A stretch of DNA of 64,000 bases from Mycobacterium gallinarum. GTDB lineage: Bacteria; Actinomycetota; Actinomycetes; Mycobacteriales; Mycobacteriaceae. Positions within the stretch are counted from its first letter, which is position 1. Each line of letters begins with the position of its first letter. Positions 7,370 through 64,000 of this stretch are shown here, piece after piece. The DNA lies in NCBI RefSeq assembly GCF_010726765.1, contig NZ_AP022601.1, forward strand, positions 124,001 through 188,000, in the 5' to 3' direction. The position numbers were made by a program, and so were the translations under genes. The notes beneath the pieces are model-generated. The model was not told the origin of the DNA. It saw only the letters and a program-made list of their open reading frames with translations, and searched no databases.

Positions 7370-7521
7370 CGGGCCGTCACCGTCCTCATAGGAATTTCAC
7401 ATTTACGGTCGCACGGGCCATGGCCGATGCGGTTACTCGGTCGAAGATGGCGCCATGACCTGCAGTGACGCCGGCGCCGACGGTCCGCGGTGAGGGTCAG
7501 TGACATAAACCGCCACCACAT

Positions 7522-7535
7522 GGGACCTTCGGCCC
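7522..7535 (+). promoter_or_regulatory. DosR-like box before membrane protein gene
   Basis: GGGACCTTCGGCCC matches 11 of 14 DosR core positions and ends 78 bp before ATG 7614. It marks the left edge of the continuous dormancy island. Confidence 0.5.
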
Positions 7536-7613
7536 TGGGATACGGATTACGTGAGGGGTGGTATTGGGTCGAGATCGTCAGATCTCGTGAATCATCTTCG
7601 AATCGAGGAGATC

Positions 7614-8075
7614 ATGAGTATGCAAGTGCAACACCGCACCCGGATGTTCGCCCGTGTGCTGGGTCCATACTTTACGATCGTCGCCGTCATCGCCGCCTTG
7701 CGCGCCCCGGATATGCGGCAGCTTCTCTCCGAGTTCACCGCCAGCGATGTGTGGCCGTGGGTCATAGGGGCCTTCATCCTCATGGGTGGCGTCGCGATCG
7801 TCGCGTTTCATCAACTCTGGCGCGGCCCCGCCGCGATCATCGTGTCCATCCTCGGATGGCTGCTTGTGGCGCGCGGGGTTTTCCTTCTCGCCTTCCCCGA
7901 CACGTTCGCCTCCGTGGCCGACCGTGTCATCGGAGCGGCCGTCGTATGGCAGGTGGCATACCTCGTGTTCGCGGTGATCGGCCTGTATCTGACATATGTC
8001 GGGTGGAAACCCGTCGGAAAAGATCAGCGGGAGTCGAATCTCCACATCGGTATCGATTTTCCCAGCGCTGCCTGA
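7614..8075 (+). CDS. four-helix integral membrane protein, unknown function
   Basis: The product is 153 aa with four hydrophobic helices (about residues 14-32, 44-64, 72-92, 108-130) and short polar tails. An AGGAG ribosome binding site precedes ATG 7614. I do not recognise a named family. The DosR-like box upstream and the DosR-type genes downstream suggest expression under hypoxia. A membrane role is seen; anything more specific would be a guess. Confidence 0.75.
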   Translation: MSMQVQHRTRMFARVLGPYFTIVAVIAALRAPDMRQLLSEFTASDVWPWVIGAFILMGGVAIVAFHQLWRGPAAIIVSILGWLLVARGVFLLAFPDTFASVADRVIGAAVVWQVAYLVFAVIGLYLTYVGWKPVGKDQRESNLHIGIDFPSAA

Positions 8076-8161
8076 GGCGCTGACCGGTGGTGCACAGCAT
8101 TGCGCAACCTCGTCGTGCATTCGTCCGGGCAAGCATCGAAGTGACCCTAGCCGCCGGTTTC

Positions 8162-8175
8162 GGGACTTTGGTCCG
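8162..8175 (+). promoter_or_regulatory. DosR box, leaderless-type promoter
   Basis: GGGACTTTGGTCCG matches 12 of 14 core positions. It ends exactly 36 bp before ATG 8212, and CAGACT occupies -12 to -7 relative to that ATG, as expected if transcription starts at the start codon. Confidence 0.75.
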
Positions 8176-8211
8176 TAGAGGATTGGCACTTCTTCGACGC
8201 AGACTCTGGGG

Positions 8212-8511
8212 ATGACCACTTTCGCGGCACCGTTGGTGCACGACGAACTTGACAGCGTCGTGTCGACACTGTGCACTCGACTCCCCGGCCGCACGCGAAG
8301 TGAAGTCGAAGCGGTCGTGGCAGCGGTCTACGCCGAGTTGGCCGCCGGAGCCACTGTCACCGCCCATTTGATCCCGTTGACGCTCAATCGAAGTCGACGC
8401 CTTTTGAGCCCTAAGCCAAGAGAGACGTCGGATCTGCATTCGCCTGAACCGATTCTGATCGAGGCGAACAACGGAAGAAACCCTCAGGCGAATGAAGGGA
8501 ACCCGAAATGA
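8212..8511 (+). CDS. small protein with a three-helix-bundle dimerisation-type domain
   Basis: The product is 99 aa. The first 60 residues form a helical region ([21 protein letters not shown], then an Ala/Val-rich helix) that resembles short actinobacterial three-helix dimerisation domains; the C-terminal third is polar and probably disordered. It has no Shine-Dalgarno sequence and lies 36 bp after a DosR box, consistent with leaderless translation. Its last codons overlap the start of the USP gene (ATGA, 8508-8511), so the two are translationally coupled. Exact function unknown. Confidence 0.65.
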
Positions 8512-10522: not shown

Positions 10523-10638
10523 GCAGTGTGCCGTGAACGTACTTCGGTCACGTCGACTTCGACGTGTCGGGCAAGCCGGTTTGGTGGCGTCCGCACGGCC
10601 GGCACCCGGCCGCCGTTGAAAACCTGAAGAGAGACGTC

Positions 10639-11220
10639 ATGCAACAGTTCACGATCACGTGGGGTAGGTATTGGTTCAGCCGGATTGCGGGGCGCAATCC
10701 GCTGGTGCGGCGTGACGACCGAATTCAGGCTTGGCTAGTCCTTCTCGCTGCCCTCGTCACCGTTCTGGCATTGCCTGTCGCTGCTGCCATCGGAACATCG
10801 GTCTACGACGCCCGTAGCCGGTTGTATGCGGAAGAGGCCAAGCACCGACACGCGGTGACCGCCACTGCGCTCGAGAACAGCACGGTCGAGGTGGGTCCAG
10901 GCTCCGCGGATGTCTCCATATTTGTCCGGGCCTCGTGGACTTCGGCGGGTAGCGATCACGTCGACGTCGTCAAATGGGCTGACGAGGCGACGGTCGGAGA
11001 TCAAGCCGAAATCTGGGTTGACGACATCACCGGCGGACCCGTCGACGCGCCTGTACGGCCGAGTCGTGCAGCCGGCGATGCCGTGGGCGTTGCGTTGACC
11101 GTCTGGTTCGCCGTGCTGGCAATCACCGCCAGTACTGCGTATCTGACCCGGCTGCGAATCATTCACCAACGAGGCATCCAATGGGATCGCGAGCTGGAAG
11201 CGCTCAAGTACCAATCATGA
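10639..11220 (+). CDS. two-TM membrane protein, Rv1733c-like
   Basis: The product is 193 aa. One transmembrane helix lies at about residues 32-55 and a second at about 152-172, with an extracytoplasmic domain of about 95 aa between them and a short cytoplasmic tail. The opening with WGRYWFSRIAGRNPLVRRDDR is typical of Rv1733c, a DosR-regulon membrane protein and T-cell antigen of unknown biochemical role. A GAAGAGAG ribosome binding site supports ATG 10639. It follows the Rv3131-like gene by 116 bp with no clear DosR box between, so it may be in the same transcript. Confidence 0.82.
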   Translation: MQQFTITWGRYWFSRIAGRNPLVRRDDRIQAWLVLLAALVTVLALPVAAAIGTSVYDARSRLYAEEAKHRHAVTATALENSTVEVGPGSADVSIFVRASWTSAGSDHVDVVKWADEATVGDQAEIWVDDITGGPVDAPVRPSRAAGDAVGVALTVWFAVLAITASTAYLTRLRIIHQRGIQWDRELEALKYQS

Positions 11221-12254: not shown

Positions 12255-12905
12255 CTACTCCTCGGGGCGGCGCTGGGACTGATCGAGTTTCGACACGAAC
12301 ACCGCCGCCTGGGTGCGGCGTTCCATACCCAGTTTGGCCAGTAGTCGTGATACGTAGTTCTTGACCGTTTTCTCCGCCAGAAACATCCGGGCAGCGATCT
12401 GCTTGTTGGTCAGGCCCTCGCCCAGCAAATCGAGCAGTACCCGCTCTTGGTCGCTGAGGCCGGCCAAGGGATCGGACTTCTCTGCAGCTCCCCGGAGTTT
12501 GGCCATCAGCGCTGCCGCAGCCCGGTTGTCCAGAAGTGAACGGCCGGCCCCGACCTCTTTGATCGCCTGAGCGAGCTCCATGCCCTTGATGTCCTTGACG
12601 ACGTACCCGCTTGCACCGGCCAATATCGCATCCAACATCGCCTCGTCGGACGTGAACGACGTGAGCATCAGACAGCGCAGATCCGGTAGCCGAGACAACA
12701 GATCGCGGCACAGTTCGATGCCGTTGCCATCGGGGAGCCGCACGTCGAGGACTGCGACATCGGGCTGGAGGGCGGGAATACGCGCCAGCGCCTGGGCCGC
12801 AGATCCGGCCTCACCGATCACCTCCAGCTCCGGATCGGCGCTCAACAGGTCGATCAGCCCGCGCCGCACGACTTCGTGGTCGTCGACGAGAAAGACTTTC
12901 ACCAT
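12255..12905 (-). CDS. devR: hypoxia response regulator DevR/DosR (orphan or second copy)
   Basis: The product is 216 aa, NarL/LuxR class. It is nearly identical in layout to M. tuberculosis DosR: acidic pair D8-D9, phospho-acceptor D54 in [11 protein letters not shown]82, K104, and a C-terminal helix-turn-helix with the DNA-contact set EKTVKN (K179, K182, N183). T198, a PknH target in M. tuberculosis, is present; the T205 position is Ser. ATG 12905 (MVKVFLVDD) is chosen over 12935 because it matches the family start. The gene follows a Rv3134c-like USP, as in M. tuberculosis, but no devS follows: the convergent USP begins 18 bp beyond the stop. Some mycobacteria carry a second DevR, so this could be that paralogue. 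Confidence 0.93.
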
Positions 12906-12945: not shown

Positions 12946-13815
12946 TCACAATACGGCGTGTGGTTGACAGATCAGGACCGAACAGCCTGCTTCGTGCAAT
13001 GACGCGTAGCCGGGTGGCCCTACCAAATCCCTTATCCCGCGTGCGCGCTCACGACCGACGACCAGTAACTGGACTGAGTCGGCATGTTCCGTCAGGTAGT
13101 TGAGGGTGTTCCCGTGCACCACAACGGGCTCGACGTCGAGGTCGGGGTAGCGCTTCTTCCACTTCGCAAGTTGACGGTCCAGCTGCGCCTTGGCGCTCCT
13201 GTTGCCCTCGGCCACGGGGCGATTGTTGTACACGTCGGTGAACCGGGTCTGCCAGCTGGTCAACACCCGCAGCGGTGCCTGCCGAAGCCGTGCCTCCTCG
13301 GAGGCATGCTGCAGGATGCGGTTGCCGACGGGCGACCCCTCGATCTCGGCAACCACCCAGTCGCCACGCCGAGGGCGCGAGTTATGGCCGCGGACAATGG
13401 CCACGGGGCAACGGGCGGAGGCCGTGACTTCTGCGGCCGTGGAACCGATTCGGCCCTGCGCGCAGTGCTCTGGGCCCGTGTCTCCCAGGCACAGCATTGC
13501 GGCCGCCGCGGACGCATCGATCAGCGCCCGAGCCGGGCGGACCCGCAGGATTTCCATCTCGATCTTGACGGGCTTCGCGGTGGATTCGACGGCTGTGACC
13601 GCACAGCGAACCGTGGTCTCTGCGGCGGCAAGGTCCTCCGCCGCATCTCCCAGCTCAGAGCCGGAGGTGTGTTTGGGGTCGATCGCATAGACGAGGCGTA
13701 GGGGGATATCGCGGCTAACGGCTTCGTCAACGGCCCACAGTGCGGCATCGAGCGCTGAGTGCGTACCGTCCAGACCGACCACGACTGAGGCCGGCGAATG
13801 CGTCGGGTCTCGCAT
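12946..13815 (-). CDS. universal stress protein, Rv3134c-like
   Basis: The product is 289 aa with two Usp-like domains. Domain 1 keeps the ATP loop [15 protein letters not shown]. In domain 2 the loop is degenerate ([13 protein letters not shown]), as in the Rv3134c group. The opening [20 protein letters not shown] is characteristic of Rv3134c, which precedes devR in M. tuberculosis. Here too it lies 40 bp upstream of devR on the same strand. A GGAGCCACC site directly precedes ATG 13815. It starts 59 bp after acg, so acg-USP-devR may be one transcript. Confidence 0.9.
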
Positions 13816-13874: not shown

Positions 13875-14867
13875 TCAGAGATCCTTCGCCCGAACATCGA
13901 AGACTTCGTCGATCGGCCGCCGCGGCGTCGGCGGTGGCTTGTCGTCGATCTCCGGAGCTGATCCGACACGGATCAATACCTGGGGAGTGGTCGGCTGGTC
14001 GATCAACGATGCGACGATGTCCCGGCCCGGATAGAGCTCGGTGATATTCGTCAGCGTGCACGTGGCGAGGCCCGCCATCGTGGCCTCCAGCAACACCGCG
14101 GAGAGCATTTCGCCGCACTGCAGGACAGAAGTGCGGTCGATGTCGTAAGTCGAAAGCACAAGAATCTTCGCGTGGTCCCGGCCGACCTCGAAGCGCCGAT
14201 CTGTGTCGTGGGTGACTGGGAAGTTACGTCCGACACCGACACGGTCGCCTTCGGAGGCAGACACCAGCGAACTGTGGGGTATCCCGTCCGTCGCCTCGAA
14301 TGGTCCTGTCCACCATGATAATTCCGAGTGGTAGGACGAATCGTAGAGGCGCAGCGACTCGGTGAGCTTGGCCGCGCTCGCAAGTTCGGCACGTAATTCG
14401 TCGGCGATCACGTCGAGGCGGACTGCATCGGAGGTGACGTTACGGCGCAACTGTGATTCGGCCGTCGCCCAGTCTGGCGGCTCAGCGTAGGGGAGGCGAT
14501 CACTCCGCCGCAGCAGAATCGCGTCGGCACGACGGATGTGCCCCTCGGTGACGAACTCCATCGGGCTGAAATCGACCGACGCCAAATGCAAAGAGTTGTT
14601 GGGATTCGGATATCGGTCGACGTGAGAGGCCCACCCCGCCGCAGCCATGGCGACGCGAAAATGGTCGAGTACGGCACCACAGCCGATCAGGGCGTCACGG
14701 CCGGTGTGGTCGGTCGAATGCAGGACGCGTTCCTGGTCGAGGAACAGATGGACCGCTTTGCCTGCGGCGACCCAATGCCACGGTTGGCTGTTGTGCAGCG
14801 ATGGTGCGCGGCACGCCAATTGCACTGCATCCTTGATCACTTTGGTGTCGACCATGGTGTCACGCAT
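13875..14867 (-). CDS. acg: Acg, nitroreductase-fold DosR-regulon protein (Rv2032-like)
   Basis: The product is 330 aa. Start MRDTMVDTKVIKDAVQLAC and the following RAPSLHNSQPWHW match my recollection of M. tuberculosis Acg (Rv2032) closely; IPHSSLVSASEGDRV and TPRRPIDEVF are further shared blocks. Acg binds FMN and is needed for persistence in macrophages, but lacks known reductase activity; a flavin-storage role has been proposed. ATG 14867 is used because it corresponds to the Rv2032 start; 14897 adds unmatched residues. The DosR-like box at 14924-14937 stands 56 bp upstream. Confidence 0.9.
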   Translation of the reverse strand: MRDTMVDTKVIKDAVQLACRAPSLHNSQPWHWVAAGKAVHLFLDQERVLHSTDHTGRDALIGCGAVLDHFRVAMAAAGWASHVDRYPNPNNSLHLASVDFSPMEFVTEGHIRRADAILLRRSDRLPYAEPPDWATAESQLRRNVTSDAVRLDVIADELRAELASAAKLTESLRLYDSSYHSELSWWTGPFEATDGIPHSSLVSASEGDRVGVGRNFPVTHDTDRRFEVGRDHAKILVLSTYDIDRTSVLQCGEMLSAVLLEATMAGLATCTLTNITELYPGRDIVASLIDQPTTPQVLIRVGSAPEIDDKPPPTPRRPIDEVFDVRAKDL

Positions 14868-14923
14868 GTTTCTAGCTTGGGAGCTGGTTCCGCCCACAAC
14901 CAGGGTAAATGGTCCTTAAGCCT

Positions 14924-14937
14924 GGGCCTTAGGACCC
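14924..14937 (-). promoter_or_regulatory. DosR-like box between divergent acg and phosphotransferase genes
   Basis: GGGCCTTAGGACCC matches 11 of 14 DosR core positions and lies 56 bp before acg and 21 bp before the divergent gene at 14959. A weaker second palindrome (TGGTCCTTAAGCCT, from 14910) is adjacent. The pair could serve both directions. Confidence 0.6.
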
Positions 14938-14958
14938 TGGCCGACCGGACGCCGCGGG

Positions 14959-24764: not shown

Positions 24765-24771
24765 GGGACGC

Positions 24772-43544: not shown

Positions 43545-43551
43545 TGATCAT

Positions 43552-43565: not shown

Positions 43566-43579
43566 ACTACAGCCGGGAT

Positions 43580-47092: not shown

Positions 47093-47107
47093 TCTCGGAG
47101 GCTTCGC

Positions 47108-52749: not shown

Positions 52750-55142
52750 GGCGCGGGGACCAGCTGTCGTTCCAACTCCAGGACCCGGCGGGTGGTCTTC
52801 ACCACGGTGTCGGGATTCAGGCTCATCGAGTCGATACCGATCCGGACCAGGAAGTCGGCCATGTCCGGATAATCCGAGGGGGCCTGTCCGCACAGCCCGG
52901 AGTGAATTCCGTTGCGGCGGCAACCATCGACGGCCAACCGGATCATCTCCTTGACGCCCTCGTCGCGTTCGTCGTAGTCGAAGGCGACCATCTCGCTGTC
53001 CCGGTCGACGCCGAGCGTCAACTGGGTCAGGTCGTTGGAGCCGATGGAGAAGCCGTCGAAGCGCTTGGCGAATTCGTCGATCAGGATCACGTTGTTCGGG
53101 ATCTCGCACATCGCGTACACCTTGAGCCCGTTCTCGCCTCGCCGCAGGCCCAGTTCCGCCATCGTCTGCAGGACCAGGTCGGCCTCGGCGAGCCGGCGGA
53201 CAAACGGAAGCATGAGGATGACATTGGTCAAGCCCATGTCATCGCGAACCCGCTGCATTGCACGGCATTCCAGTGCAAATCCCTCGGCGTAGGCCGGATG
53301 CGCATAGCGGGAGGCGCCGCGGAAGCCGATCATCGGGTTGCTTTCCGACGGCTCGAAGCTCTGCCCGCCGATGAGGCTGGCGTATTCGTTGGACTTGAAG
53401 TCCGACATCCGCACTACGACGGGCTTGGGCCAGAAGGCGGCGGCGATGGTGCCGATTCCCTCGGAGAGCCGCTCGACGAAGAACGCACTGCCATCGGTAT
53501 AACTCTGAGTGAGTTGATCGATGGTCTGGCGTGCGTCCAGGTCGTCCACTTTCTCCGGGTGCAGTAGGGCGAGCGGGTGAACCCGGATGTACTCGCTGAT
53601 GATGAACTCCATGCGGGCGAGTCCCACGCCGTCGTTCGGTAGGAACGACGTTTTGAACGCGAGGTCGGGGTTGCCGAGGTTGAGCATGATCTGCGTCCGG
53701 GGCCGCGCCAGGTCGCCGACTTCCGTGCGGTCCACGTGGAAACCCACAGCGCCCTCGTATACCCGGCCGGTATCGCCCTCGGCGCAGGACACCGTCACCA
53801 CCTGGCCGTCGGGTACGGAGGTGGTCGCGTCACCGGTGCCCACCACAGCGGGGATGCCGAGTTCGCGGGCGATGATCGATGCGTGGCAGGTGCGGCCGCC
53901 GCGGTTGGTGACGATCGCCGCGGCCGTCTTCATGACCGGCTCCCAATCGGGCGTGGTGGTGTCGGCAATCAGCACCTCGCCGGGCTTGAATGCCGTTAGC
54001 TGCGTTAGGTTCTCGACCCTTCTTGCCGCCCCCGAGGCGATCCTTTCACCCACCGATCGGCCCTCGGTGATGATCTCGCCCTTGCCCTCGAGCACGTAGG
54101 TTTCCAGTGCGGTCACGCTGTGCTGCGAGGCCACCGTCTCAGGTCGGGCCTGGACGATGTAGAGCCTTCCGTCGAGACCGTCCTTGGCCCACTCGATGTC
54201 CATCGGCCTGCCGTAGTGCGCCTCGATGGAGCAGGCATAGCCGGCCAGCTCCAACACGTCGGCATCGGTGAGGCAGAACCGGGTGCGGTCGGCCTTGGGG
54301 GTCGGGATGTTCCTCGTGGTGTTCTTGGTCTCGCCATCGACGAGGATCATCTTCACGGCCTTGTCGCCGAGCAGGCGCCGGAGCACGGTGCGGTGGCCGG
54401 CGAGATACGTCGGCTTGTGGACGTAGAACTCGTCTGGGTCGACGGCGCCCTGAACGACGTTCTCGCCGAGGCCGTAGGCACCGGTGATGAAGACGGTGTC
54501 GCGGAATCCCGATTCGGTGTCCAGTGAGAACATCACACCGGATGACGCGATGTCGGAGCGCACCATCTTCATCACGCCGATCGACAGCGAGACCTTGAAA
54601 TGGTCGAAGCCCTGGTCGATTCGGTAGTGAATCGCCCGGTCGGTGAACAGGCTGGCGAAACACCGTCGACAGGTGTCGAGGAGACTCTCTTCGCCCTTGA
54701 TGTTGAGATACGAATCCTGCTGTCCAGCGAAGCTGGCGGTTGGTAGGTCCTCGGCAGTCGCCGAACTGCGTACCGCAAGGCTGACCTCGTCGCCGTATTC
54801 CCGCTGCAGAGCGCGGTATCCGTCAAGAATCGCGGCGGCCAGATCGTCGGGTAGTCCGGCGCCGTAGACGATCTCTCGGGCGCGCTTGGCTTTACGCGCC
54901 AGCGCGGCGACGTCGGCAGGGTCGATGTCGTCGAGTTCGGCATGCAGGCGGCCCCACGCCCCGGCCTCGTCCAGCATGTGGCGATAGGCGGCAGCGGTTA
55001 TGGCGAATCCGTGCGGAACGCGCACGCCCTGAGCGGAGAGCTTCTGGAACATCTCGCCGAGTGAGGCATTCTTGCCGCCGACGAGCGGCACATCATTGAT
55101 TCCCATGTCTTCGAAAAAGCGAACGTATTCAGATGTACCCAT
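52746..55142 (-). CDS. ppsA: phosphoenolpyruvate synthase
   Basis: The product is 798 aa. The N-terminal ATP-grasp part has LVGGKNASLGEMF; the phospho-His domain has the catalytic His in GGRTCHASIIARELGIPAV; the C-terminal PEP/pyruvate barrel has GSNDLTQLTLGVDRDS and a Cys in GLCGQAPSDYP. It converts pyruvate and ATP to PEP, AMP and Pi. ATG 55142 (AGAGGACACG upstream) is chosen over 55229 because the family begins here. With otsB1 it forms a two-gene operon toward gluconeogenesis and trehalose/maltose metabolism. Confidence 0.93.
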   Translation of the reverse strand: MGTSEYVRFFEDMGINDVPLVGGKNASLGEMFQKLSAQGVRVPHGFAITAAAYRHMLDEAGAWGRLHAELDDIDPADVAALARKAKRAREIVYGAGLPDDLAAAILDGYRALQREYGDEVSLAVRSSATAEDLPTASFAGQQDSYLNIKGEESLLDTCRRCFASLFTDRAIHYRIDQGFDHFKVSLSIGVMKMVRSDIASSGVMFSLDTESGFRDTVFITGAYGLGENVVQGAVDPDEFYVHKPTYLAGHRTVLRRLLGDKAVKMILVDGETKNTTRNIPTPKADRTRFCLTDADVLELAGYACSIEAHYGRPMDIEWAKDGLDGRLYIVQARPETVASQHSVTALETYVLEGKGEIITEGRSVGERIASGAARRVENLTQLTAFKPGEVLIADTTTPDWEPVMKTAAAIVTNRGGRTCHASIIARELGIPAVVGTGDATTSVPDGQVVTVSCAEGDTGRVYEGAVGFHVDRTEVGDLARPRTQIMLNLGNPDLAFKTSFLPNDGVGLARMEFIISEYIRVHPLALLHPEKVDDLDARQTIDQLTQSYTDGSAFFVERLSEGIGTIAAAFWPKPVVVRMSDFKSNEYASLIGGQSFEPSESNPMIGFRGASRYAHPAYAEGFALECRAMQRVRDDMGLTNVILMLPFVRRLAEADLVLQTMAELGLRRGENGLKVYAMCEIPNNVILIDEFAKRFDGFSIGSNDLTQLTLGVDRDSEMVAFDYDERDEGVKEMIRLAVDGCRRNGIHSGLCGQAPSDYPDMADFLVRIGIDSMSLNPDTVVKTTRRVLELERQLVPAP

Positions 55143-55484: not shown

Positions 55485-56882
55485 ATGGAGCACCTCACGA
55501 CGCTGGATGCGAGCTTCCTGCAGGCCGAGGATTCCGATTCCCACGTGAGCCTGGCGGTCGGCGGCGTGTCGATCGTGGAAGGACCGCCGCCCGACTACGG
55601 CGATCTGGTGTCGGCGTTCGCCGCTCGAGCGCAGGCCATCCCGCGCTGCACCCAAGTGCTGCGCACGCACCCGTTCGACCTCGGCGCACCGGAATGGGTG
55701 CACGACCCCAACTTCGATGTTGCGCATCACCTCCACCGAATCGCGTTGCCTCATCCGGGGGATGACTCCGCGCTGTTCGGGGCGATCGCCGGCATCATGG
55801 AACAACGGCTGGACCGCGACCGCCCGCTGTGGGAGTGCTGGATCATCGAGGGACTCACCGACGATAGGTGGGCGCTGTTGATGAAGATCCACCACTGCAT
55901 AGCCGACGGCATCGCCACCACGCAGATGCTGGCAAAGCTCAGCGACGGTGGCGCTCAGGAGACCTTCGCGACCAGTATCCGCGCAGCGCGGGAGTCCGGC
56001 GAATCCATCCTCGATCTGCTGCGGCCGAGGCTGAACCCGCTGAACTGGATGGGCGGCATTTGGCAGGCGACGCTCGCAGCGACCAGCGCCGCCGAACACG
56101 CCGTGGTCGGGGCGGCCGAACTAACGGCTCGTGTGCTCACCACCGCGCAGGACTCTTCACTGAACGGACCCATCACGAAGATGCGTCGCTACAGCGCCGC
56201 GCGCGTCGACCTGGCCGTGATGAAGCAGGTGTGCCGGGATTTCGACGTCACGCTCAACGACGTGGCGCTGGCGGCAATCACCAGCGGTTACCGGACGATC
56301 TTGCTTGACCGCGGCGAAACGCCGGGACCCCATGCACTGCGCACGCTGGTCCCCGTCTCGATGCGTTCGGTGGACGACTTCGATGTGACTGACAACCGGG
56401 TGTCGGCGATGCTGCCCCTCTTGCCCGTCGATGAACCCGATCCCGTCAAGCAGTTGGAGATCGTCCACCAGCGACTGGTCGAGGCCAAGGGAAGCGGTCA
56501 ACGGGAGGGCGGCAGCGCCGTTCTCGCCGTGACGGGAAGCATTCCATTTGCATTCTCGGCGTGGGCGATTCGACTGCTGACCCGCCTGCCGCAGAAGTCG
56601 GTATCCGCGTTGGCGACGAACGTGCCGGGACCCCGCACCCGGCAGCGGTTGATGGGTCGGGACGTGTTGGAGATCCTGCCGGTGCCGCCGATTGCCCTTC
56701 ACCTGCGCACCGGTATCGCGATGCTCAGCTACGCCGACCGCTTCTTCTTCGGCATCACCGCAGATTTTGACAACGCACCCGACGTCGACGCGCTCGCCCG
56801 GGGGATCGAGGACGCCGTAGGACACTTGGCGACGCTCGGTGGCTCGCGAGGACAGACACGAGCTGTCGGTGACCACAAATGA
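55485..56882 (+). CDS. tgs1: triacylglycerol synthase Tgs1 (Rv3130c-like)
   Basis: The product is 465 aa. MEHLTTLDASFLQAEDSDSH matches my recollection of the start of M. tuberculosis Tgs1. The catalytic motif is HHCIADG at about residue 135; ATNVPGPRTRQRLMGR is the conserved C-terminal block. Tgs1 makes triacylglycerol from diacylglycerol and acyl-CoA under hypoxia and is a core DosR-regulon gene. ATG 55485 is used; the frame to 55407 would overlap the DosR-like box. It overlaps the next WS/DGAT gene by 4 bp. Confidence 0.92.
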   Translation: MEHLTTLDASFLQAEDSDSHVSLAVGGVSIVEGPPPDYGDLVSAFAARAQAIPRCTQVLRTHPFDLGAPEWVHDPNFDVAHHLHRIALPHPGDDSALFGAIAGIMEQRLDRDRPLWECWIIEGLTDDRWALLMKIHHCIADGIATTQMLAKLSDGGAQETFATSIRAARESGESILDLLRPRLNPLNWMGGIWQATLAATSAAEHAVVGAAELTARVLTTAQDSSLNGPITKMRRYSAARVDLAVMKQVCRDFDVTLNDVALAAITSGYRTILLDRGETPGPHALRTLVPVSMRSVDDFDVTDNRVSAMLPLLPVDEPDPVKQLEIVHQRLVEAKGSGQREGGSAVLAVTGSIPFAFSAWAIRLLTRLPQKSVSALATNVPGPRTRQRLMGRDVLEILPVPPIALHLRTGIAMLSYADRFFFGITADFDNAPDVDALARGIEDAVGHLATLGGSRGQTRAVGDHK

Positions 56883-58252
56883 CCGAATTCATGCGAAGCA
56901 GTGATGCTTTCACCTGGGCGATGGAAAGCGATCCTCGGTTGCGATCCACGGTGGTCACGGTGATCATGCTCGACCGATCGCCGGATTGGAACGAAGTGCG
57001 CGATCGCTTCGACGTCATTTCGCGCATGGTGCCGATGGTGCGCCAGCGTGTCGTTCCATCGCCGCCGCCCGCACCGCCGAGGTGGGAGCACGCCCCAGAC
57101 TTCGACCTCGACTTCCACATGCGCCGAGTGACGGCACCCTCGCCCGGCACCATCGACACGGTGCTGGAGATGGCGCGGGTCGCGGCCATGGAGGACTTCG
57201 ACCGGGCCCGCCCCCTGTGGGAGGCCACGTTGATCGATGGACTCGAAAACGGCGGCGCGGCAATGCTGCTCAAGTTCCACCATGCGCTGACCGACGGAGT
57301 CGGAGGCATCCAGATCGGAATGATCCTCTTCGATCTGTCCGAGGTTCCCGATAAACACGGTTCGGTCGCGGCACTGCCCGAGGAGCCGCCGCCGCCGTGG
57401 CTACGCAGCTACCGTGACACCGCTCGATACGGCGCCGGCTTGGTGACGGAGGCGGTGACGGGCGCTCTGAGGACGGCTCCGAAGCTGATTGCCAACGGCA
57501 TTCTGAACCCGGTGGAAACCGTTTCGTCGGCAGCCGAGTTGGCCGCCTCGGTCTACCGCACCATGCGCCCGGTCAGCCGGACCGGCTCGTCGCTGATGAA
57601 CAACCGCAGCCTTGTCCGCAGGCTCGGCGTGCTCGAAGTCCCGTTCGGACAGCTCAGGGCCGCCGCGCACCAGGGCGGCGGTGCGTTGAACGACGCGTTC
57701 GTCGCCGGCGTCGCCGGGGGACTGCGCCTCTACCACGAAAAGCACGGCGTCACGGTCGGCGACCTTCACCTGACGATGCCCATGAGTCTGCGCGAAGAGG
57801 GCGACGACATGGGCGGCAACCGAATCACCATCATGCGGTTCGACGTGCCGGTCGGCACCGCCGATCCCGAGGAGCGAATCCGCCAGATCCACGACAGAAC
57901 CGGAAAGGTGCGTCACGAGAAGTCGCTGCCGTACACGCAGTGGATCGCCGGCGCTCTGAACATGATGCCGCGCTGGTACATCGGCTCGATCCTGCGCAAT
58001 GTCGACTTCCTGTGCAGCGACGTGCCGGGGATACCGGTGCCCGTGTTCCTTGGTGGCGCCAAGGTGTTGACGCAGTACGCATTCGGCCCGACGATCGGCT
58101 CGGCGGTCAATGTCACGTTGTTGACATACGTGGACGTGTGCACTCTCGGCATCGACGTGGACACCGGCGCGATTCCCGACCACGACGTATTCATGGATAG
58201 CCTCGTCGCCGGTTTCGACGAGGTGTTGGCGCTTGGCTTGGGCCATGTCTAG
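56879..58252 (+). CDS. second WS/DGAT family acyltransferase in the tgs1 operon
   Basis: The product is 457 aa with HHALTDG at about residue 134 and the C-terminal blocks GGGALNDAFVAGVAGGLRLY and CSDVPGIPVPVFLGG. It is a close paralogue of the enzyme at 35798 (same SDAFTWAMESDPRLRSTVV opening) and only distantly like Tgs1. ATG 56879 overlaps the tgs1 stop. Two different WS/DGAT enzymes in one operon may use different acceptors (diacylglycerol versus fatty alcohol or another lipid), which is inference. Confidence 0.88.
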   Translation: MTEFMRSSDAFTWAMESDPRLRSTVVTVIMLDRSPDWNEVRDRFDVISRMVPMVRQRVVPSPPPAPPRWEHAPDFDLDFHMRRVTAPSPGTIDTVLEMARVAAMEDFDRARPLWEATLIDGLENGGAAMLLKFHHALTDGVGGIQIGMILFDLSEVPDKHGSVAALPEEPPPPWLRSYRDTARYGAGLVTEAVTGALRTAPKLIANGILNPVETVSSAAELAASVYRTMRPVSRTGSSLMNNRSLVRRLGVLEVPFGQLRAAAHQGGGALNDAFVAGVAGGLRLYHEKHGVTVGDLHLTMPMSLREEGDDMGGNRITIMRFDVPVGTADPEERIRQIHDRTGKVRHEKSLPYTQWIAGALNMMPRWYIGSILRNVDFLCSDVPGIPVPVFLGGAKVLTQYAFGPTIGSAVNVTLLTYVDVCTLGIDVDTGAIPDHDVFMDSLVAGFDEVLALGLGHV

Positions 58253-58706
58253 GAGGAACGGTCGAGGCATCGCGGTCGCCGGCATCGTCGGCGCCGCCGG
58301 CCTCGCGATGCTCGTGCTCGTGCCGGGGTTGCGCCTCGGCACGGACGTGCCGTGGTTGGGTGCCCTGGTGATTCTCGCTCCCACGGCGACGTTGTTGGCC
58401 GCTACGGGATTCCGGCACTATGGGCTTGGAACCGCGGTGGCCGTCGCGGCCGTGGTCGCGGTCGTCGCAGGCGGCGTCAGCTGGCTCGTCGCGGTCTTCA
58501 CGTTGGTGAAGGCGCTGAGCGGGGTGGGCGTCGGGCTCGCCTGGGCGATACTGCTGTTCCTCACTCCTGCGGTGTCGGTGCTCGCACTCGGTGCGCTGGC
58601 ATTGCGCGTTGTTCCAGGGCGGTCGGCGCCGGGCGAGCCGTCTGACGCGGTACAGCAGCCAGGGGCGTCGGCGCGCGTGAACCGACGTCACGATGTACCG
58701 GGATGA
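58245..58706 (+). CDS. membrane protein of unknown function in the tgs1 operon
   Basis: The product is 153 aa with four hydrophobic helices (about 9-30, 38-54, 61-85, 98-122) and a polar C-terminal tail. ATG 58245 overlaps the WS/DGAT stop by 8 bp, supporting co-translation. No family recognised. Its position between storage-lipid enzymes and a PlsC-like acyltransferase hints at a role in lipid handling at the membrane. Confidence 0.65.
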   Translation: MSRRNGRGIAVAGIVGAAGLAMLVLVPGLRLGTDVPWLGALVILAPTATLLAATGFRHYGLGTAVAVAAVVAVVAGGVSWLVAVFTLVKALSGVGVGLAWAILLFLTPAVSVLALGALALRVVPGRSAPGEPSDAVQQPGASARVNRRHDVPG

Positions 58707-58802
58707 CGAACGAAACGGGCTGTCAGCGACGTCGACGCGTAAGCCGCTCGATCGGCTCAACGCGCCGCGCCCGCTCCGGCGCCGACTGACGGAGTGGGAC
58801 GA

Positions 58803-59612
58803 ATGGCCGACGAACCTTCGGTAGTGGCGAAGTGGGACCGGGGTCTCACCCGACGCGTCGTTGACCTGCACCGCCCGATCGTGAAGAGCTACTTCCGTTC
58901 TCAGGTACTCGGATTGGAAAACATTCCGCGTGGGCCGGCGCTGATGGTGGCGAATCACTCGGGTGGGCTCATCACAGTCGACCTGTCGGTACTGGCCGTC
59001 GACTACTACAAGACCTTCGGATACGAGCGGCCGCTCTACGCGCTGGCCCACGACAACATGTTTCGCGGACCGGTGGCCGGGTTTCTCGAGCGCACCGGTG
59101 TCATCCGAGCCACCCCCGAGCACGCCGCCGAGGCGCTGGCGACCGGTGGCCTGGTGCTCGTCTTCCCTGGTGGGGACTACGACGTCTACCGGCCCACCCG
59201 GCGGGAGAACGTCATCGATTTCGGCGGGCGTACCGGGTACGTGACGACGGCGATCGAGGCCGGCGTCCCCATCGTTCCCGCGGTATCGATCGGCGGCCAG
59301 GAGAACCAGTTCTACCTGACCAGAGGACGGTGGTTGGCACGTGCGCTGCGGCTGACGACGTTCGAGCGCAATCTCTTTCGGACCAACATCCTTCCGATAA
59401 CCATCGGATTCCCGTTCGGCGTCAGCGTGGTGTTGCCGATCAACATGCCGCTGCCGACAAAGATCGTCACGCAAGTGTTGCCGGCGATCGACGTCGCCGC
59501 GGAGTTCGGGGACCAACCCGATGTGCACAGGGTCGACGCCCACGTGCGCGCGGTGATGCAGCACGCCCTGGTCGCATTGGCGCGCAAGCGTCGGCTGCCC
59601 ATCATCGGGTGA
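58803..59612 (+). CDS. PlsC-like lysophospholipid/glycerol-phosphate acyltransferase
   Basis: The product is 269 aa from ATG 58803 (GGAG 8 bases upstream; GTG 58794 lies in that site). The LPLAT/PlsC acceptor motif is NHSGGLITVD, a longer-spaced variant of HxxxxD, followed by FPGGDYDVYRPT in place of the usual FPEGTRS. This variant is typical of the diacylglycerol-acyltransferase-like/MGAT branch rather than classical PlsC. It would acylate lysophosphatidate or another lipid precursor and so feed Tgs1. Confidence 0.82.
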   Translation: MADEPSVVAKWDRGLTRRVVDLHRPIVKSYFRSQVLGLENIPRGPALMVANHSGGLITVDLSVLAVDYYKTFGYERPLYALAHDNMFRGPVAGFLERTGVIRATPEHAAEALATGGLVLVFPGGDYDVYRPTRRENVIDFGGRTGYVTTAIEAGVPIVPAVSIGGQENQFYLTRGRWLARALRLTTFERNLFRTNILPITIGFPFGVSVVLPINMPLPTKIVTQVLPAIDVAAEFGDQPDVHRVDAHVRAVMQHALVALARKRRLPIIG

Positions 59613-59793: not shown

Positions 59794-60228
59794 ATGACCA
59801 CACCGACTCAACCGATCTCCATCCTGTCGGAGACGGAATGCTGGAGCCTCATGTCTAGTGTCTCCCTGGGACGGCTTGTCACGAGCGTCGACGGTCAGCC
59901 GGACATCTTTCCCGTCAACTTCGCCGTCCAGCACAAGACGGTGTTGTTTCGCACAGCTGAGGGCACCAAATTGGTCAGCTCGGCCATCAACAACAACGTG
60001 CTGTTCGAAGTCGACGACCACAACGCCGTCGAGGGCTGGAGCGTCATCGTCAAGGGGATAGCACGGTCAATGCGTACCGATGCCGAGATCGACGAGGCCG
60101 AACGGGCACAGCTGCTCCCGTGGACCGCCACGGTCAAGCAGCACTACGTGCGCATCCGCCCGCTGAGCATCAGCGGCCGGCGCTTCACCTTCGGCTCTGA
60201 GCCGGACCGCGAGTTCACCATCGCTTGA
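59794..60228 (+). CDS. pyridoxamine 5'-phosphate oxidase-fold protein, Rv3129-like
   Basis: The product is 144 aa, split-barrel flavin-binding fold. VLFRTAEGTKL, VEGWSVIVKGIAR and AERAQLLPWTATVKQH match my recollection of M. tuberculosis Rv3129, a DosR-regulon gene adjacent to tgs1 there. FMN or F420 binding is likely for the fold; the reaction is unknown. The Rv3129 sequence I remember starts later, so this longer N terminus (MTTPTQPISILSETECW) may represent the complete domain. No Shine-Dalgarno is present; a leaderless mRNA is likely. Confidence 0.85.
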   Translation: MTTPTQPISILSETECWSLMSSVSLGRLVTSVDGQPDIFPVNFAVQHKTVLFRTAEGTKLVSSAINNNVLFEVDDHNAVEGWSVIVKGIARSMRTDAEIDEAERAQLLPWTATVKQHYVRIRPLSISGRRFTFGSEPDREFTIA

Positions 60229-60248
60229 GTCGCCGCGCCCACGCCCAC

Positions 60249-60935
60249 CTAGACGATCCGGTGTAGGTCGTCGCTCGCTTTGGCAGCCGCGGTTTCAGCC
60301 TGGACCTGTTGTTGCACCCTGCGTTTGATGCCGAGCAAGATCCCCCGCGTCACAAAAGCCGTTACCGGCCCAGCGAGCTCGGTGACCAACGCCTGGCCGG
60401 GACGACGCAACGGTGATCGGATGCGAATGAGAAGCCGGCAGCGATCATCCCAATGCGGAATGACATGGAACGACCACACCACGTTCCATTCGCGGTCAGT
60501 TCCTCGGCCCGCAGAAGCTCGCAACACGATGGATTGCTGATCGGCGACCTCCACCACCTCGAGCACGAACCCTTCGCGTAACCCCATCCAGCCCTTGGGA
60601 ACAAGCCTGATCGTGTCACCCGGCGCGAGGTGTTGCCATTCGGGATGAATGCGGTCTGCGTTGACGTACCGCAACCCGGCGAAGTTCTCCAACTTCTCGA
60701 AGGTGTAGAGCCCGCCGCGATCTTGGCCCATCTGAACCAGCCACGGCCAGATCGCATCGGGCGGACCGTCAATCCACACCGCTTCGGTGCTCCGCACACC
60801 GGGTCCGGCGATGAGGTCATCGCCGTCGAGGAACATCTGGCACTCTTCCTTCGTGGTGCCCCAGTTGCGGTAGTACCGCCGCGCTGCGTACAGGAACGCC
60901 AGTGTTCCGGCGAGCCGCAGTCCGTTTTTGATCAT
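60249..60935 (-). CDS. SRPBCC-fold protein with N-terminal membrane anchor
   Basis: The product is 228 aa. A short hydrophobic start (about 5-20) precedes a SRPBCC (START/Bet v 1-like) ligand-binding domain, recognised from STEAVWIDGPPDAIWPWLVQ and VWSFHVIPHWDDRCRLLIRI. Such domains bind hydrophobic ligands. The C terminus is helical and charged. A DosR box ends exactly 36 bp upstream with CACCCT at -12 to -7, so regulation with its neighbours is likely. Ligand unknown. Confidence 0.8.
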   Translation of the reverse strand: MIKNGLRLAGTLAFLYAARRYYRNWGTTKEECQMFLDGDDLIAGPGVRSTEAVWIDGPPDAIWPWLVQMGQDRGGLYTFEKLENFAGLRYVNADRIHPEWQHLAPGDTIRLVPKGWMGLREGFVLEVVEVADQQSIVLRASAGRGTDREWNVVWSFHVIPHWDDRCRLLIRIRSPLRRPGQALVTELAGPVTAFVTRGILLGIKRRVQQQVQAETAAAKASDDLHRIV

Positions 60936-60971
60936 GACCTAAGGGTGCGCTGGCCGGGTACAACCCGGCTA

Positions 60972-60985
60972 GGGTCGCTAGTCCC
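60972..60985 (-). promoter_or_regulatory. DosR box, leaderless-type promoter for SRPBCC gene
   Basis: GGGTCGCTAGTCCC matches 11 of 14 core positions, 36 bp before the start at 60935. Confidence 0.68.
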
Positions 60986-61114
60986 TGATCCGATCGACGT
61001 TTCGCCGCAGCACTTCTTCGCACGTCGGCGACGACGACGCCGGCCGTCGAGACACGCAGGGTCACTCCGTCGACCGATGGATGTGCGTGTGGCCTCCGAA
61101 CGGCCCGCTGGGCG

Positions 61115-61128
61115 GGGTCTTCAGGCCC
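61115..61128 (+). promoter_or_regulatory. DosR-like box before DUF1876/Rv2030c-like unit
   Basis: GGGTCTTCAGGCCC matches 11 of 14 core positions and ends 66 bp before ATG 61195, which has an AAGGAG ribosome binding site. Confidence 0.6.
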
Positions 61129-61194
61129 TACCGGGACCCGTCGTCGGGTGGTCGGATGCATGTTGGGAGTGACGTTGTGAAGGAGATGACTGCG

Positions 61195-61479
61195 ATGACT
61201 GGCGAACGATCGGATGTCGTGGAGAAGAACTGGACTGTCGACGTGTCGATCGACGAGCACATGGGACTCACCAGAGCCAAGGCGCGGCTGCGCTGGCGCG
61301 AAAAAGAAGAAGTCGGTATCGGTACCGCGAGGCTCAATCCCGATGACCGGGATATCGCCGAGATCGGTGACGAACTCGCCGTCGGACGTGCCTTGTCGGA
61401 TCTGGGGAGGCGGTTGATGGCGGTGGCTGCACACGACATCGAGTCCGTTACCCATCAACCGGCGAATTTGCTGTACTGA
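61195..61479 (+). CDS. DUF1876 protein (Rv1738/Rv2632c-type)
   Basis: The product is 94 aa from ATG 61195; GTG 61165 and ATG 61186 upstream are less likely given the AAGGAG position. [22 protein letters not shown] and the C-terminal [13 protein letters not shown] are typical of DUF1876. The fold of Rv1738 resembles ribosome hibernation factors, and the gene is among the strongest DosR targets in M. tuberculosis. A role in shutting down translation is therefore plausible but unproven. It precedes the Rv2030c-like gene by 25 bp. Confidence 0.87.
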
Positions 61480-61504
61480 CAATTATTGACGACGGAGGGC
61501 CGAA

Positions 61505-63550
61505 ATGACGCGTGCCTCAGAGGTTTTGAATAGCAAACCCAGACGCGTCTTTCGCGATCGTCGCGAAGCTGGTCGTGTGCTGGCCGGCATGCTCGGCGCA
61601 TACCGTGGACGCGAAGGTGTCATTGTGCTCGGCTTGCCTCGCGGCGGCATTCCCGTCGCATGGGAAGTCGCGGCGGCCTTGGCTGCGCCCCTTGACGCCT
61701 TCGTGGTGCGGAAGCTCGGTGCGCCGGGTCATGAGGAGTTCGCCGTCGGCGCCTTGGCCAGCGGCGGGCGCGTCGTCGTCAATGACGACGTACTGCGGGC
61801 GCTACGAGTCACGCCGCAACAGCTGCGGGATGTCGCCGAACGCGAGGGCCGAGAGCTCATCCGGCGTGAGACCGCCTACCGCGGCGGTCGGCCGCCGTTG
61901 GATCTCACGAACAAGACCGTGATCCTCGTCGACGATGGTCTTGCGACCGGCGCCAGCATGTTCGCTGCAGTGCAGGCCCTGCGGGAGATGGAACCTGCCG
62001 AAATCGTGATCGCGGTTCCGGCTGCCCCTGAATCGACTTGCCGCGAGTTTTCAGCGATCGTCGACGACGTCGTCTGTGCAACGATGCCGACGCCATTTCT
62101 TGCGGTCGGAGAGTCGTTCTGGGATTTCCGGCAGGTGAGCGACCAAGAGGTGCGTGACTTACTCGCCACTCCGACAATCGGTTTCGCTACCGTTGGTATA
62201 CGCATCGAGGAGACCGCCGCGGAAGTGATCGGTCGCGTTGCGATTGACGCGCCCGGCGGCGTTCCGCCGTTTGAAGTGCTCGACGAAGTCATCGGAGACG
62301 CCCGGATCGTACTGATCGGCGAAAGCTCGCACGGCACAGACGAGTTCTACCGGGCGCGTGCCGAGATCACCAGATGGCTGATCGAAGAAAAAGGCTTCAG
62401 CGGCGTTGCCGCCGAAGCCGACTGGCCCGACGCATATCGGGTCAACCGATACGTACACGGTTTAGGCACAGATCAGTCCGCAGACGAGGCATTGCGAGGC
62501 TTCGAGAGGTTTCCCGCGTGGATGTGGCGCAACGTGGTGGTGCGTGATTTTGTCGACTGGCTGTACGACCATAACGAGCGCAATCGGACGGTCGGCGGAC
62601 ACCAGGCGGGTTTCTACGGCCTTGACCTCTACAGCCTGCATCGGTCAATGCAAGAAGTGATCGCCTATCTCGACACTGTCGACCCGCAGGCAGCGGCGCG
62701 TGCGAGGGCCAGATACGCCTGCTTCGACCACGCATCGGCGGATGACGGTCAGGCGTACGGATTCGCGGCGGCGTTCGGCGCCGGTCTGTCGTGTGAGCGC
62801 GAAGCGGTCGAGCAATTGGTTGAGATGAAGCGCGCCGCGTTGGAATACGCGCAGCGTGACGGACTGCTAGCCGAGGATGAGGCGTTCTACGCCCAGCAGA
62901 ACGCGCAGACTGTGAGGGACGCAGAGGTCTACTACCGAGCCATGTTCAGCGGCAGAGTCACGTCCTGGAATCTTCGGGATCGGCATATGGCCCATACTCT
63001 GAACGCTCTGGTGGCCCACCTGGACCGCCGTCACGACCAGCAGTCCACCCGAATCGTCGTGTGGGCCCACAATTCGCATGTCGGCGATGCCAGAGCCACC
63101 GAAGCGGGCAGCGACGGGCAGCTCACACTCGGCCAGCTCGTGCGTGAGCGGTATGGACAGGGTTCCCGGTTGATCGGGTTCACAACGTATTCGGGCACGG
63201 TCACTGCCGCCAGTGAGTGGGGTGGCATCGCCGAACGCAAGTATGTCCGGCCTGCCCTCAACGGCAGCGTCGAGGAACTGTTCCATGAGACGGAGCGTTC
63301 CGAATTCTTGGTTTCGTCGTCTATCAGCCGCGCCGCGGCCGATCCTCTGGACGTCGTCCGGCTGGGACGGGCTATCGGCGTCATCTATCTCCCGGCGACT
63401 GAACGACAGAGCCATTACTACCATGTCCGCCCAGGCGAGCAGTTCGACGCGATCATCCACATCGACAGAACGAGAGCACTTGAGCCGCTTGAGGTCACAA
63501 GTCTGTGGACGGCGGGCGAAACGCCGGAGACATATCCCACCGGGTTGTAG
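61505..63550 (+). CDS. phosphoribosyltransferase / erythromycin-esterase-like fusion, Rv2030c-like
   Basis: The product is 681 aa, the length I recall for M. tuberculosis Rv2030c. The N-terminal phosphoribosyltransferase domain (about 15-215) has the PRPP loop [14 protein letters not shown]. The C-terminal erythromycin-esterase-like domain (about 260-670) has [25 protein letters not shown] and [10 protein letters not shown]. Both domains look intact. The function in dormancy is unknown. ATG 61505 has GACGGAGGGCC upstream. In M. tuberculosis this gene precedes hspX; here hspX is absent and an Acg-like gene converges. Confidence 0.88.
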
Positions 63551-63616
63551 TGACTTCGGTCGCGTGCGCGCTACTTCGCGAGACATACTCCTCTATGGGA
63601 ACTTTCGCCCATGTGC

Positions 63617-63643
63617 GAACCCGTGCTCGGTACCTCCGGGTTC
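63617..63643. terminator. possible bidirectional hairpin between Rv2030c-like and acg-like genes
   Basis: GAACCCG (63617-63623) pairs with CGGGTTC (63637-63643) around a 13-nt loop, between convergent genes. The right arm runs into the stop codon of the acg-like gene. Confidence 0.3.
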
Positions 63644-64000
63644 ATTCACGTCGTTCAAGCACATCGGCCAGCGGCCTGCGCGGTGTAGCGGCCAATGCCG
63701 CATCGGCAGGCCGGGAGTATCCGATCCTGATCAGCAGCTGGGGCGTACCCCGTTGACCAGTTAATTCACGGACGATCTCGCGGCTTTGAGCTAGTTCGGT
63801 CATATGGGTGAGGGTGCACGTCGCCAGCCCACTCGCCGTGCACCGGAGCAAAACCGCCGATAGTGCCTCTCCACACCGCAACACGTCCAACCGGGCATCT
63901 TCGTGATGAGTGGACAAAACCACGATTTTGGACCGGTCGACTTCGGCGTGCTCGGTGCGGGGGGAGGCGTAAGGGGTGGGAAAATGACGGCCGGCATCGA
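63642..64000 (-). CDS. second Acg-like nitroreductase-fold protein, N terminus beyond window
   Basis: The frame is open to the window edge and gives 118 C-terminal residues. VDRSKIVVLSTHHEDARL, RCGEALSAVLL, ASGLATCTLTHMTEL and TPRRPLADVLE match Acg (Rv2032) and the acg gene at 13875. It is a distinct paralogue: the identity to the first copy is partial. In M. tuberculosis acg is divergent from the hspX-Rv2030c unit; here the second copy is convergent with the Rv2030c-like gene. Confidence 0.85.
   Translation of the reverse strand, partial: DAGRHFPTPYASPRTEHAEVDRSKIVVLSTHHEDARLDVLRCGEALSAVLLRCTASGLATCTLTHMTELAQSREIVRELTGQRGTPQLLIRIGYSRPADAALAATPRRPLADVLERRE

Follow-up and report, generated by a model that had tools for sequence, protein, structure and literature searches.

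Introduction

Could a mycobacterial chromosome hold its dormancy regulon as a single bounded unit? The DosR loci of Mycobacterium tuberculosis are dispersed, and the dormancy regulon has usually been studied where it is scattered, as in that species, or in M. smegmatis. The question is raised by a stretch of 64,000 nucleotides from Mycobacterium gallinarum (contig NZ_AP022601.1), here called the window, which corresponds to C1:124,001-188,000 of a 6.09 Mb chromosome accompanied by a second contig of 212 kb. An earlier reading of these letters, the original prediction, had placed a consolidated DosR-type dormancy island at 7500..64000, in which a near-complete persistence programme would be collected together with hydrogenase, arginine catabolism, 2-oxoacid oxidation and triacylglycerol storage. 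Here, we report that the island is a discrete and sharply bounded block, larger than the window. It probably represents a DosR regulon that is switched on by oxygen loss through a kinase and DosR, that was put together or relocated as one unit, and that exchanged modules with other lineages. Mycolicibacterium tusciae DSM 44338 has an identical DosR protein, and one named locus (L047) holds the same 21-gene run, with 87-100% protein identity to the island genes; the host is therefore an environmental mycobacterium closely related to that species.

A discrete block and its empty site

The whole block measures 64.7 kb, with about 58 genes, and runs from window position 7,403 to C1:196,095 (L008:8,095). 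Consequently, the predicted bounds shift at both ends, since the left edge is at 7403 and the block extends 8,095 bp beyond the end of the window, where 7 further genes were called. Genes were called with our own codon-based caller, not a standard gene finder, which gave 58 genes in the window and missed one open reading frame (ORF) resembling an insertion sequence (IS); protein families were assigned by Pfam and NCBIfam.

The edges come from two related species, G222 and G185, in both of which the 64.7-kb block is absent from this site, as is expected of a genomic island. In the alignment with G222, the right flank (TetR-MmpS-MmpL) stops at C1:196,096 of the present genome and the left flank (an OmpR-type regulator and a kinase) restarts at C1:131,402, with 47 bp between the flanks. 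The alignment with G185 gives 196,082 and 131,402 as the edges, with 33 bp between them, and of the left-flank regulator and kinase genes only parts survive. Parts of the regulon occur elsewhere in both genomes: a Hox-DosS block lies at a distance of 46-48 kb, and DosR blocks are about 285 and 428 kb from the site (DosR to site), respectively. In G266 the block is found at the same site, colinear except for lost arc genes, while in G310 the right edge is in the same place, the block is split over two contigs and a part of the left flank (g4-g7) is absent from there.

Near-colinear islands also exist away from these flanks. That of G325 extends from DosR to DosS, with a copy of the left-flank kinase about 1.9 Mb away, and the association with the flanks is therefore not general; that of G319 is similar as far as fetched and lies away from our flanking genes. 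Gene order, proposed with the original prediction as a check, is thus near-colinear in G325 and G266, whereas large shuffled versions are present in G231, G285, G223, G225 and G183. The empty site, together with the near-colinear island elsewhere, suggests movement as a unit, in which insertion and loss are not separated.

The regulator, its kinase and the DosR boxes

DosR is present in a single close copy, the next best match in the own-genome search having 40% identity. The window carries DosR and not DosS; six HisKA_3 kinases turned up when the genome was searched, and one of them, of the DosS/DosT type, lies inside the block past the window end (Table 1). It contains two GAF domains (GAF_2), HisKA_3 and HATPase. 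Its first GAF domain has the GAF domain of PDB entry 2vzw as best match (1.5e-75), followed by DevS chains, and its core also matches DosT (3zxq) and DevS (3zxo). A DosR orthologue, a two-GAF kinase of the DosS/DosT type and promoter boxes above background, all expected of a DosR regulon, are therefore found in one block. The kinase, the sharp edges of the block and the Hox type of the hydrogenase, whose tree conflicts with that of rpoB, had escaped the original prediction.

When up to 3 mismatches are allowed, a 20-bp M. tuberculosis consensus has 0 matches, both in the window and genome-wide, so that the strict form of the box fails here. A palindromic 16-bp model was then fitted by expectation maximization (EM), unseeded and from random starts, to 23 island promoter regions; it converged on AGGGACTTAAGTCCCT with a log-likelihood of 65, compared with 29 to 51 for 12 random sets of control promoters. 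The resulting position weight matrix (PWM), at ≥12, identifies 18 sites in window 7,253-64,000 (56.7 kb) versus 5 in 720 kb taken from elsewhere in the genome, and at ≥11 the numbers are 20 and 9; at ≥10, sites are found in 16/23 island promoters and 9/299 control promoters. The 720 kb consist of 36 stretches, 34 chromosomal and 2 on the second contig; among the 36, L035 surrounds a DosR paralogue. The predicted figure of about 20 DosR-like palindromes is thus borne out by our own matrix, trained on the island, with most of the boxes in promoters, and the comparison of box density with the genome background, fixed beforehand, also favours the prediction.

Because the first matrix was trained on the island, the fair test is that with a motif derived from other species. 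EM on 120 island promoters of G325, G231, G285, G223, G225 and G183 converged on AGGGACCATGGTCCCT, which at ≥10 occurs in 13/23 island promoters versus 7/299 controls (Fisher p 1.4e-12). In addition, the 14-bp core of the published box NNNGGGHCNWWNGNCCCBNN (PMC2947987) has 30 sites at ≤1 mismatch in 64.7 kb, where the density in the 720 kb would predict 5.6; once 2 mismatches are allowed, the excess falls to only 1.3-fold.

The box that precedes the acg-Usp-dosR run is likely autoregulatory for DosR. In 11/12 genomes, counting our own, the best match to acg has a box ≥10 upstream, although some of these genomes contributed to training the matrices. Two palindromes outside the island, at 4180-4195 (PWM 14.2) and 3897-3912 (11.2), lie in a convergent intergenic region and may be terminator-like chance matches. 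One site on the 212-kb contig (L026:1239) is also similar to the DosR core.

Hydrogenase and arginine modules

The predicted hydrogenase is indeed in the block and is of the NAD-reducing Hox type. HoxF, HoxU, HoxY and HoxH domains, the Ni-binding CxxC and the DPCLSC motif are all present, as in the NAD-reducing hydrogenases of group 3d, and HoxH is nearest to NAD-reducing hydrogenases (PDB 5xf9_D, 6e-134). With this HoxFUYHW set, the enzyme is not of the Hyh type (Hyd3/Hyh, group 3b) described for M. smegmatis. HypD is encoded elsewhere in the genome, at C1:872,125, so that the hydrogenase could be matured. Among the 198 genomes of the genus surveyed, HoxH occurs at E≤1e-60 in 21 (own included). 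A second HoxH type (74-75% identity) was seen in L138, L140, L141 and L148, lineages in which the fetched stretches contain hardly any island genes, or none, near it. Selenocysteine was also considered, as a TGA was flagged inside the match in 14/20 relatives, and rejected: in the 18 of these 20 that were read, which include 12 of the flagged 14, the TGA proved to be a normal stop codon at the end of the gene, and DPCxSC is kept in 18/18.

For the arginine deiminase module, the prediction holds as to gene content, with all four arc genes present, whereas the pathway looks broken. The C-terminus of ArcB, beside the IS-like insertion, differs from those of four relatives, and arcB looks damaged by that insertion. 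In the closest genome, G266 (L142/L143), arcD and arcA are missing, as is the beginning of arcB. The module therefore appears to be damaged differently in two close genomes, while intact-looking copies exist elsewhere. ArcC is found with ≥74% identity in 24/198 genomes of the genus and at E≤1e-30 in 39. Two more arginine deiminase homologues are encoded in the genome (G000), at C1:5511600-5512823 (57%) and C1:3425769-3426974 (41%).

The two modules diverge from a boxed intergenic region. Upstream of arcD, a box ≥10 is present in 13/21 cases, and in 7/14 among those not used for matrix training, compared with 1.3% of 393 control regions, which extend at most 250 bp upstream and in some cases less; for hoxF, 5/7 have such a box, with none in G325 and G231. 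A link of Hox and arginine genes by a DosR box was not found in a narrow search of the open-licence literature. The best match of phosphoenolpyruvate (PEP) synthase (PpsA) has a box ≥10 upstream in 8/9 genomes, with five merely 37-40% identical homologues among them.

Distribution and exchange

How far is this arrangement shared? DosR occurs at E≤1e-85 in 177/198 genomes of the genus (own included). It lies within 60 kb of ArcC on the same contig in at least 10 of the 24 ArcC genomes, our own included, a lower bound because assemblies are often fragmented. Among 80 named DosR loci (≤10 kb on each side, several species twice), 30 have 8 or more matches to the island genes of the window, DosR and repeats counted. 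In some other ArcC genomes (e.g., G208, G315 and G322), the fetched 13-20 kb show the arc genes with no island genes beside them.

In the rpoB tree of 18 genomes, our genome, G266, G310, G222 and G185 stand together with a Shimodaira-Hasegawa-like approximate likelihood ratio (SH-aLRT) support of 100. The HoxH tree, the sole island gene tree tested, rejects this clade (log-likelihood difference 38.4; approximately unbiased test, p-AU 0.026). In nucleotide identity, our HoxH is closer to those of G324, G300 and G325 (86-87%) than to those of G222/G185 (82-83%), while rpoB shows the reverse. The contrast is sharper for PpsA and OtsB-GH65: our type of PpsA is found at 84-85% nucleotide identity in five distant genomes and the closer pair G222/G185 has only 52%; the corresponding values for OtsB-GH65 are 81-82% and 69-70%. 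The distant G285, G223 and G225 have low-identity PpsA too, as do G285 and G223 for OtsB-GH65, and the genes of G222/G185 may be different paralogues. The acg and AAA_33 genes do not separate G222/G185 from distant genomes. In our reading, the regulatory core has mostly been inherited vertically, whereas metabolic modules have been exchanged.

Plasmids were searched for DosR at E≤1e-50 and for HoxH at E≤1e-80. DosR was found on 36 plasmid records (Rhodococcus 16, Streptomyces 14, five other genera 6), none of them mycobacterial, and HoxH on 4, again none mycobacterial. ArcC is on 364 plasmid records, mostly of Escherichia and rhizobia among the ten largest genera, with a best match of 70% in Paraburkholderia, and OtsB-GH65 on 56, 18 of them from Rhodococcus (ten largest genera tallied).

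Weighing the explanations

Several observations count against a mobile, DosR-controlled unit. No integrase or long direct repeat was found at the block edges (the longest exact word common to both, 200 bp each way, is 9 bp) and no tRNA within the window or 20 kb on either side, so that no known mechanism of mobility is indicated; the scanned proteins include no integrase or conjugation genes of an integrative element, one internal IS-like ORF excepted. The GC content of the island, 63.9% versus 65.6% (standard deviation 1.2) for the 34 chromosomal stretches, is only mildly atypical. The identities of DosR, DosS, pfkB, the Rv2030c-like gene and DGAT52 follow the rpoB (species) order, hence most of the core regulon looks vertical, and HoxH was chosen after its odd identity pattern had been seen, which makes the p of 0.026 optimistic. 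As to the boxes, a split-half test worked in one direction (7/12 held-out promoters), while the other half gave a different motif (1/11); a box ≥10 is missing from 7/23 island promoters with the island-trained matrix and from 10/23 with the cross-species one; and two strong sites fall within the initial 7 kb of the window, which do not belong to the block.

Then, could the island be ancestral at this site, with a clean loss in the G222/G185 lineage that left two remnant blocks at other places, and no insertion at all? We think this possible, if rather unlikely. The Hox-DosS block 46-48 kb and the DosR block about 285/428 kb from the site in these species would fit such a loss, and it would take an outgroup holding both flanks to order the split and whole forms. 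None of the left-flank kinase stretches of 19 other genomes has the right flank directly adjacent; in G225, an MmpL-MmpS pair (74%, 62%) is found on the opposite side of the kinase, at a distance of about 9 kb. However, the short junction is nearly the same in both species (33 and 47 bp), their HoxH is not grouped with ours, and G325 has a nearly colinear island with its left-flank kinase copy about 1.9 Mb off. Alternatively, the cluster may have grown piecemeal at one place under selection for co-regulation, the order in G325 reflecting common descent with rearranged flanks and no unit transfer. The five genes in rpoB order, the wide occurrence of often shuffled DosR-type clusters and the missing mobility genes agree with this; the sharp empty site, the conflict of the HoxH tree and the occurrence of our types of PpsA and OtsB-GH65 in five distant genomes each (for which the choice of paralogue is a possible explanation) speak against it, and we consider it unlikely. 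It is highly improbable that a generic cluster of stress genes in GC-rich DNA has been dressed up by chance palindromes. The strict 20-bp consensus without a match and the many Usp-like genes would allow it, but it is contradicted by the box density, the promoter tests and the cross-species motif, and by the identification of DosR and the DosS/DosT-type kinase through homologues with known structures.

The proposed unit would work as follows. The GAF kinase, presumably binding haem, would sense the loss of oxygen, or nitric oxide or carbon monoxide, and phosphorylate DosR, which would activate the greater part of the block and, by way of the acg promoter, its own gene. In the non-growing cell, the NAD-linked Hox hydrogenase may keep the redox balance, the S30AE, Acg and PPOX proteins may hold back ribosomes and flavins, pyruvate may be steered to PEP and trehalose, and carbon may be stored as triacylglycerol. 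The block itself may have been assembled or moved as a unit, with modules exchanged with other lineages. Both the regulation and the metabolic roles are deduced from sequence homology and from the boxes. The suggestion that the clustering suits transfer or co-regulation thus keeps its second half as plausible, and relocation or exchange has evidence, with insertion versus loss left unseparated.

Comparison with known systems

The island resembles the M. tuberculosis regulon, for which we take the structures 3c3w, 2y8h and 2w3d as the basis of comparison, in DosR, the DosS/DosT-type kinase, Usp, Acg, PfkB, WS/DGAT, the Rv1733c and Rv2632c families and the type of box. To our knowledge, no HoxFUYH or ArcDABC set is under DosR in M. 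tuberculosis. The closest works in comparative genomics are said to be those of Gerasimova in 2011 and Chen in 2013. The plasmid-borne HoxFUYHW of Cupriavidus necator (a subunit set that we presume) has a HoxH 79% identical to ours over 488 aa and is also followed by a maturation protease; unlike there, our Hox genes are under a DosR-type box, and their activity and direction are predictions.

Rhodococcus megaplasmids (pDK2, pYLL1 and the AQ5-07 plasmid) carry a DosR of 71-77% and a GAF kinase of 51-60% identity within the same 40 kb, plus Usp, and an OtsB/GH65-like fusion also occurs in the Rhodococcus stretches L128 and L129. Unlike the chromosomal island, these regions are plasmid-borne and have other cargo (chaperones and encapsulin on pDK2), and the three stretches (L127, L128, L129) have no match to Hox or Arc proteins. 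DosR-type stress regions thus occur on plasmids in a related family, which does not imply that the island originated there. On pDK2 there are two DosR genes along with chaperones and an encapsulin-Dyp peroxidase pair.

In M. smegmatis, chromosomal DosR clusters beside devR/devS with [NiFe] hydrogenase and PEP synthase, msmeg_3926-3955 (31 genes) and msmeg_5241-5246 (6), are induced at low oxygen (PMC2799521). They differ from the about 58 genes in one block here in their size, in the two DevR copies versus one close DosR, and in the hydrogenase, Hyd3/Hyh versus HoxFUYH (PMC2799521); the main text of that paper never uses the word "arginine". In Streptomyces coelicolor, a member of a different family, the OsdR/OsdK region SCO0167-SCO0219 places a DosR-type regulator, with a 16-bp palindrome AGGGCCGATCGGCCCT, beside many Usp, a nitroreductase-family gene and pyruvate phosphate dikinase; the portion of the paper at hand names nitrate reductase but not hydrogenase or arginine genes, and offers no empty-site evidence, unlike the case here (PMC5069765). 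Consolidated DosR-type clusters have therefore been published, and the novelty of consolidation is limited (PMC2799521; PMC5069765). Prior notice of DosR clustering may be larger than is known here.

Other genes of the block

Table 1. Features of the DosR island and their coordinates (window positions unless marked C1 or L008).
Feature	Position	Strand	Basis or remark
DosR island, in-window part	7403..64000	.	51 called genes; edges from two related genomes with empty site
Rv1733c family protein	10564..11220	+	NF050032 134 bits, cut-off 80
DosR/DevR response regulator	12255..12905	-	PDB 3c3w DevR, 7e-115, 385 bits, residues 1-211
Universal stress protein (Usp) directly 5' of DosR, Rv3134c position	12946..13815	-	Usp PF00582
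Acg family flavin mononucleotide (FMN) oxidoreductase, heads acg-Usp-dosR run	13875..14867	-	NF047509 323 bits, cut-off 199
DosR box between acg and AAA_33 gene	14923..14938	.	PWM 16.6; centre 63 bp upstream of acg
S30AE/ribosome-hibernation-type protein (Rv0079 of the original prediction)	20539..21393	+	PF16321, PF02482
2-oxoacid dehydrogenase module: acyl carrier protein, E2, E1beta, E1alpha, acetate-CoA ligase-like enzyme, small protein	24507..30023	-	
PfkB-family sugar kinase	33341..34294	+	PF00294; box 33264-33279 (both PWM tests)
Arginine deiminase module	37439..43449	-	NCBIfam
arcC	37439-38344	-	Above NCBIfam cut-off
arcC-arcB gap with IS-like insertion	38345..39646	.	rve-type ORF 38515-39747(+), PF00665 1.6e-12
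arcB	39647-40693	-	PRK01713 and TIGR00658 above cut-off
arcA	40715-41974	-	486.5 bits, just below TIGR01078 cut-off 489.1; above PRK01388
arcD, arginine-ornithine antiporter	41971-43449	-	Above NCBIfam cut-off
DosR box, divergent arcD/hoxF promoter	43551..43566	.	PWM 16.5; 109 bp to arcD, about 327 bp to hoxF
HoxF-HoxU-HoxY-HoxH-HoxW, NAD-reducing [NiFe] hydrogenase and maturation protease	43885..49053	+	Domains; protease TIGR00072
HAD-trehalose-phosphatase (T6PP)-GH65 fusion	49072-52749	-	TIGR00685
T6PP-GH65 fusion and phosphoenolpyruvate synthase	49072..55142	-	TIGR00685, PRK06464; box 55215-55230
Two WS/DGAT acyltransferases, small gene, PlsC-type acyltransferase (triacylglycerol/wax-ester storage)	55485..59612	+	
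PPOX, unknown gene, Rv2632c-like, phosphoribosyltransferase-erythromycin-esterase	59851..63550	.	Boxes at 60971, 61114 (both PWM tests)
PPOX protein	59851-60228		
Rv2632c-like protein	61195-61479		
Phosphoribosyltransferase and erythromycin-esterase protein	61505-63550		
DosS/DosT-type kinase	C1:192,564-194,273 (L008:4564-6273)		4.6 kb past window end, inside block

The claim that DosR-type families are gathered in one block stands, with DosR, 11 Usp-domain genes in the window, Acg, an Rv1733c-family protein, PfkB, OtsB-GH65 and WS/DGAT. A second nitroreductase-family gene and an AAA_33 protein are also in the window. The families behind the Rv-numbered labels are present, but Rv2004c, Rv0079, Rv2623, Rv3129 and Rv2030c are domain-level matches, for which the numbers, in part carried over from the original prediction, are putative designations. 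"Near-complete" was an overstatement, since Hsp20/HspX, NarK2, CtpF and FdxA, which we take to be members of the M. tuberculosis DosR regulon, have no Pfam match among the scanned proteins of the block, the only part of the genome searched for them; one block with one motif does remain.

The 2-oxoacid oxidation and triacylglycerol storage genes were found as predicted, that is, the E1/E2 module and three WS/DGAT genes (at 35798, 55485 and 56879). In the former, the acetate-CoA ligase-like enzyme scores 914 bits against PRK04319 (cut-off 729), and the box of the module is at 30081-30096 (both PWM tests). Four island genes have no convincing Pfam match (window 30637-31239, 58245-58706 and 60249-60935, on which NCBIfam was also tried, and L008:3780-4478), and their homologues recur in at least some islands of other species. 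The gene crossing the right edge of the window (L008:2-631) has a weak, sub-threshold match to nitroreductases of the Acg-like kind.

Conclusion

The boxed divergent promoter between arcD and hoxF would tie oxygen loss to NAD-linked hydrogen metabolism and arginine fermentation. We tentatively suggest, as a reading that may well prove wrong, that DosR islands form a shared modular gene pool, in which the grammar of regulator, kinase and box stays while HoxFUYH, ArcDABC and PEP synthase-OtsB are captured and passed between mycobacterial lineages, with the Rhodococcus megaplasmids as a related reservoir. If so, an obligate aerobe would gain fermentative options in one step. Since the island has clear boundaries and its empty site is known, both what it does and how it arose are open to testing on a single object.

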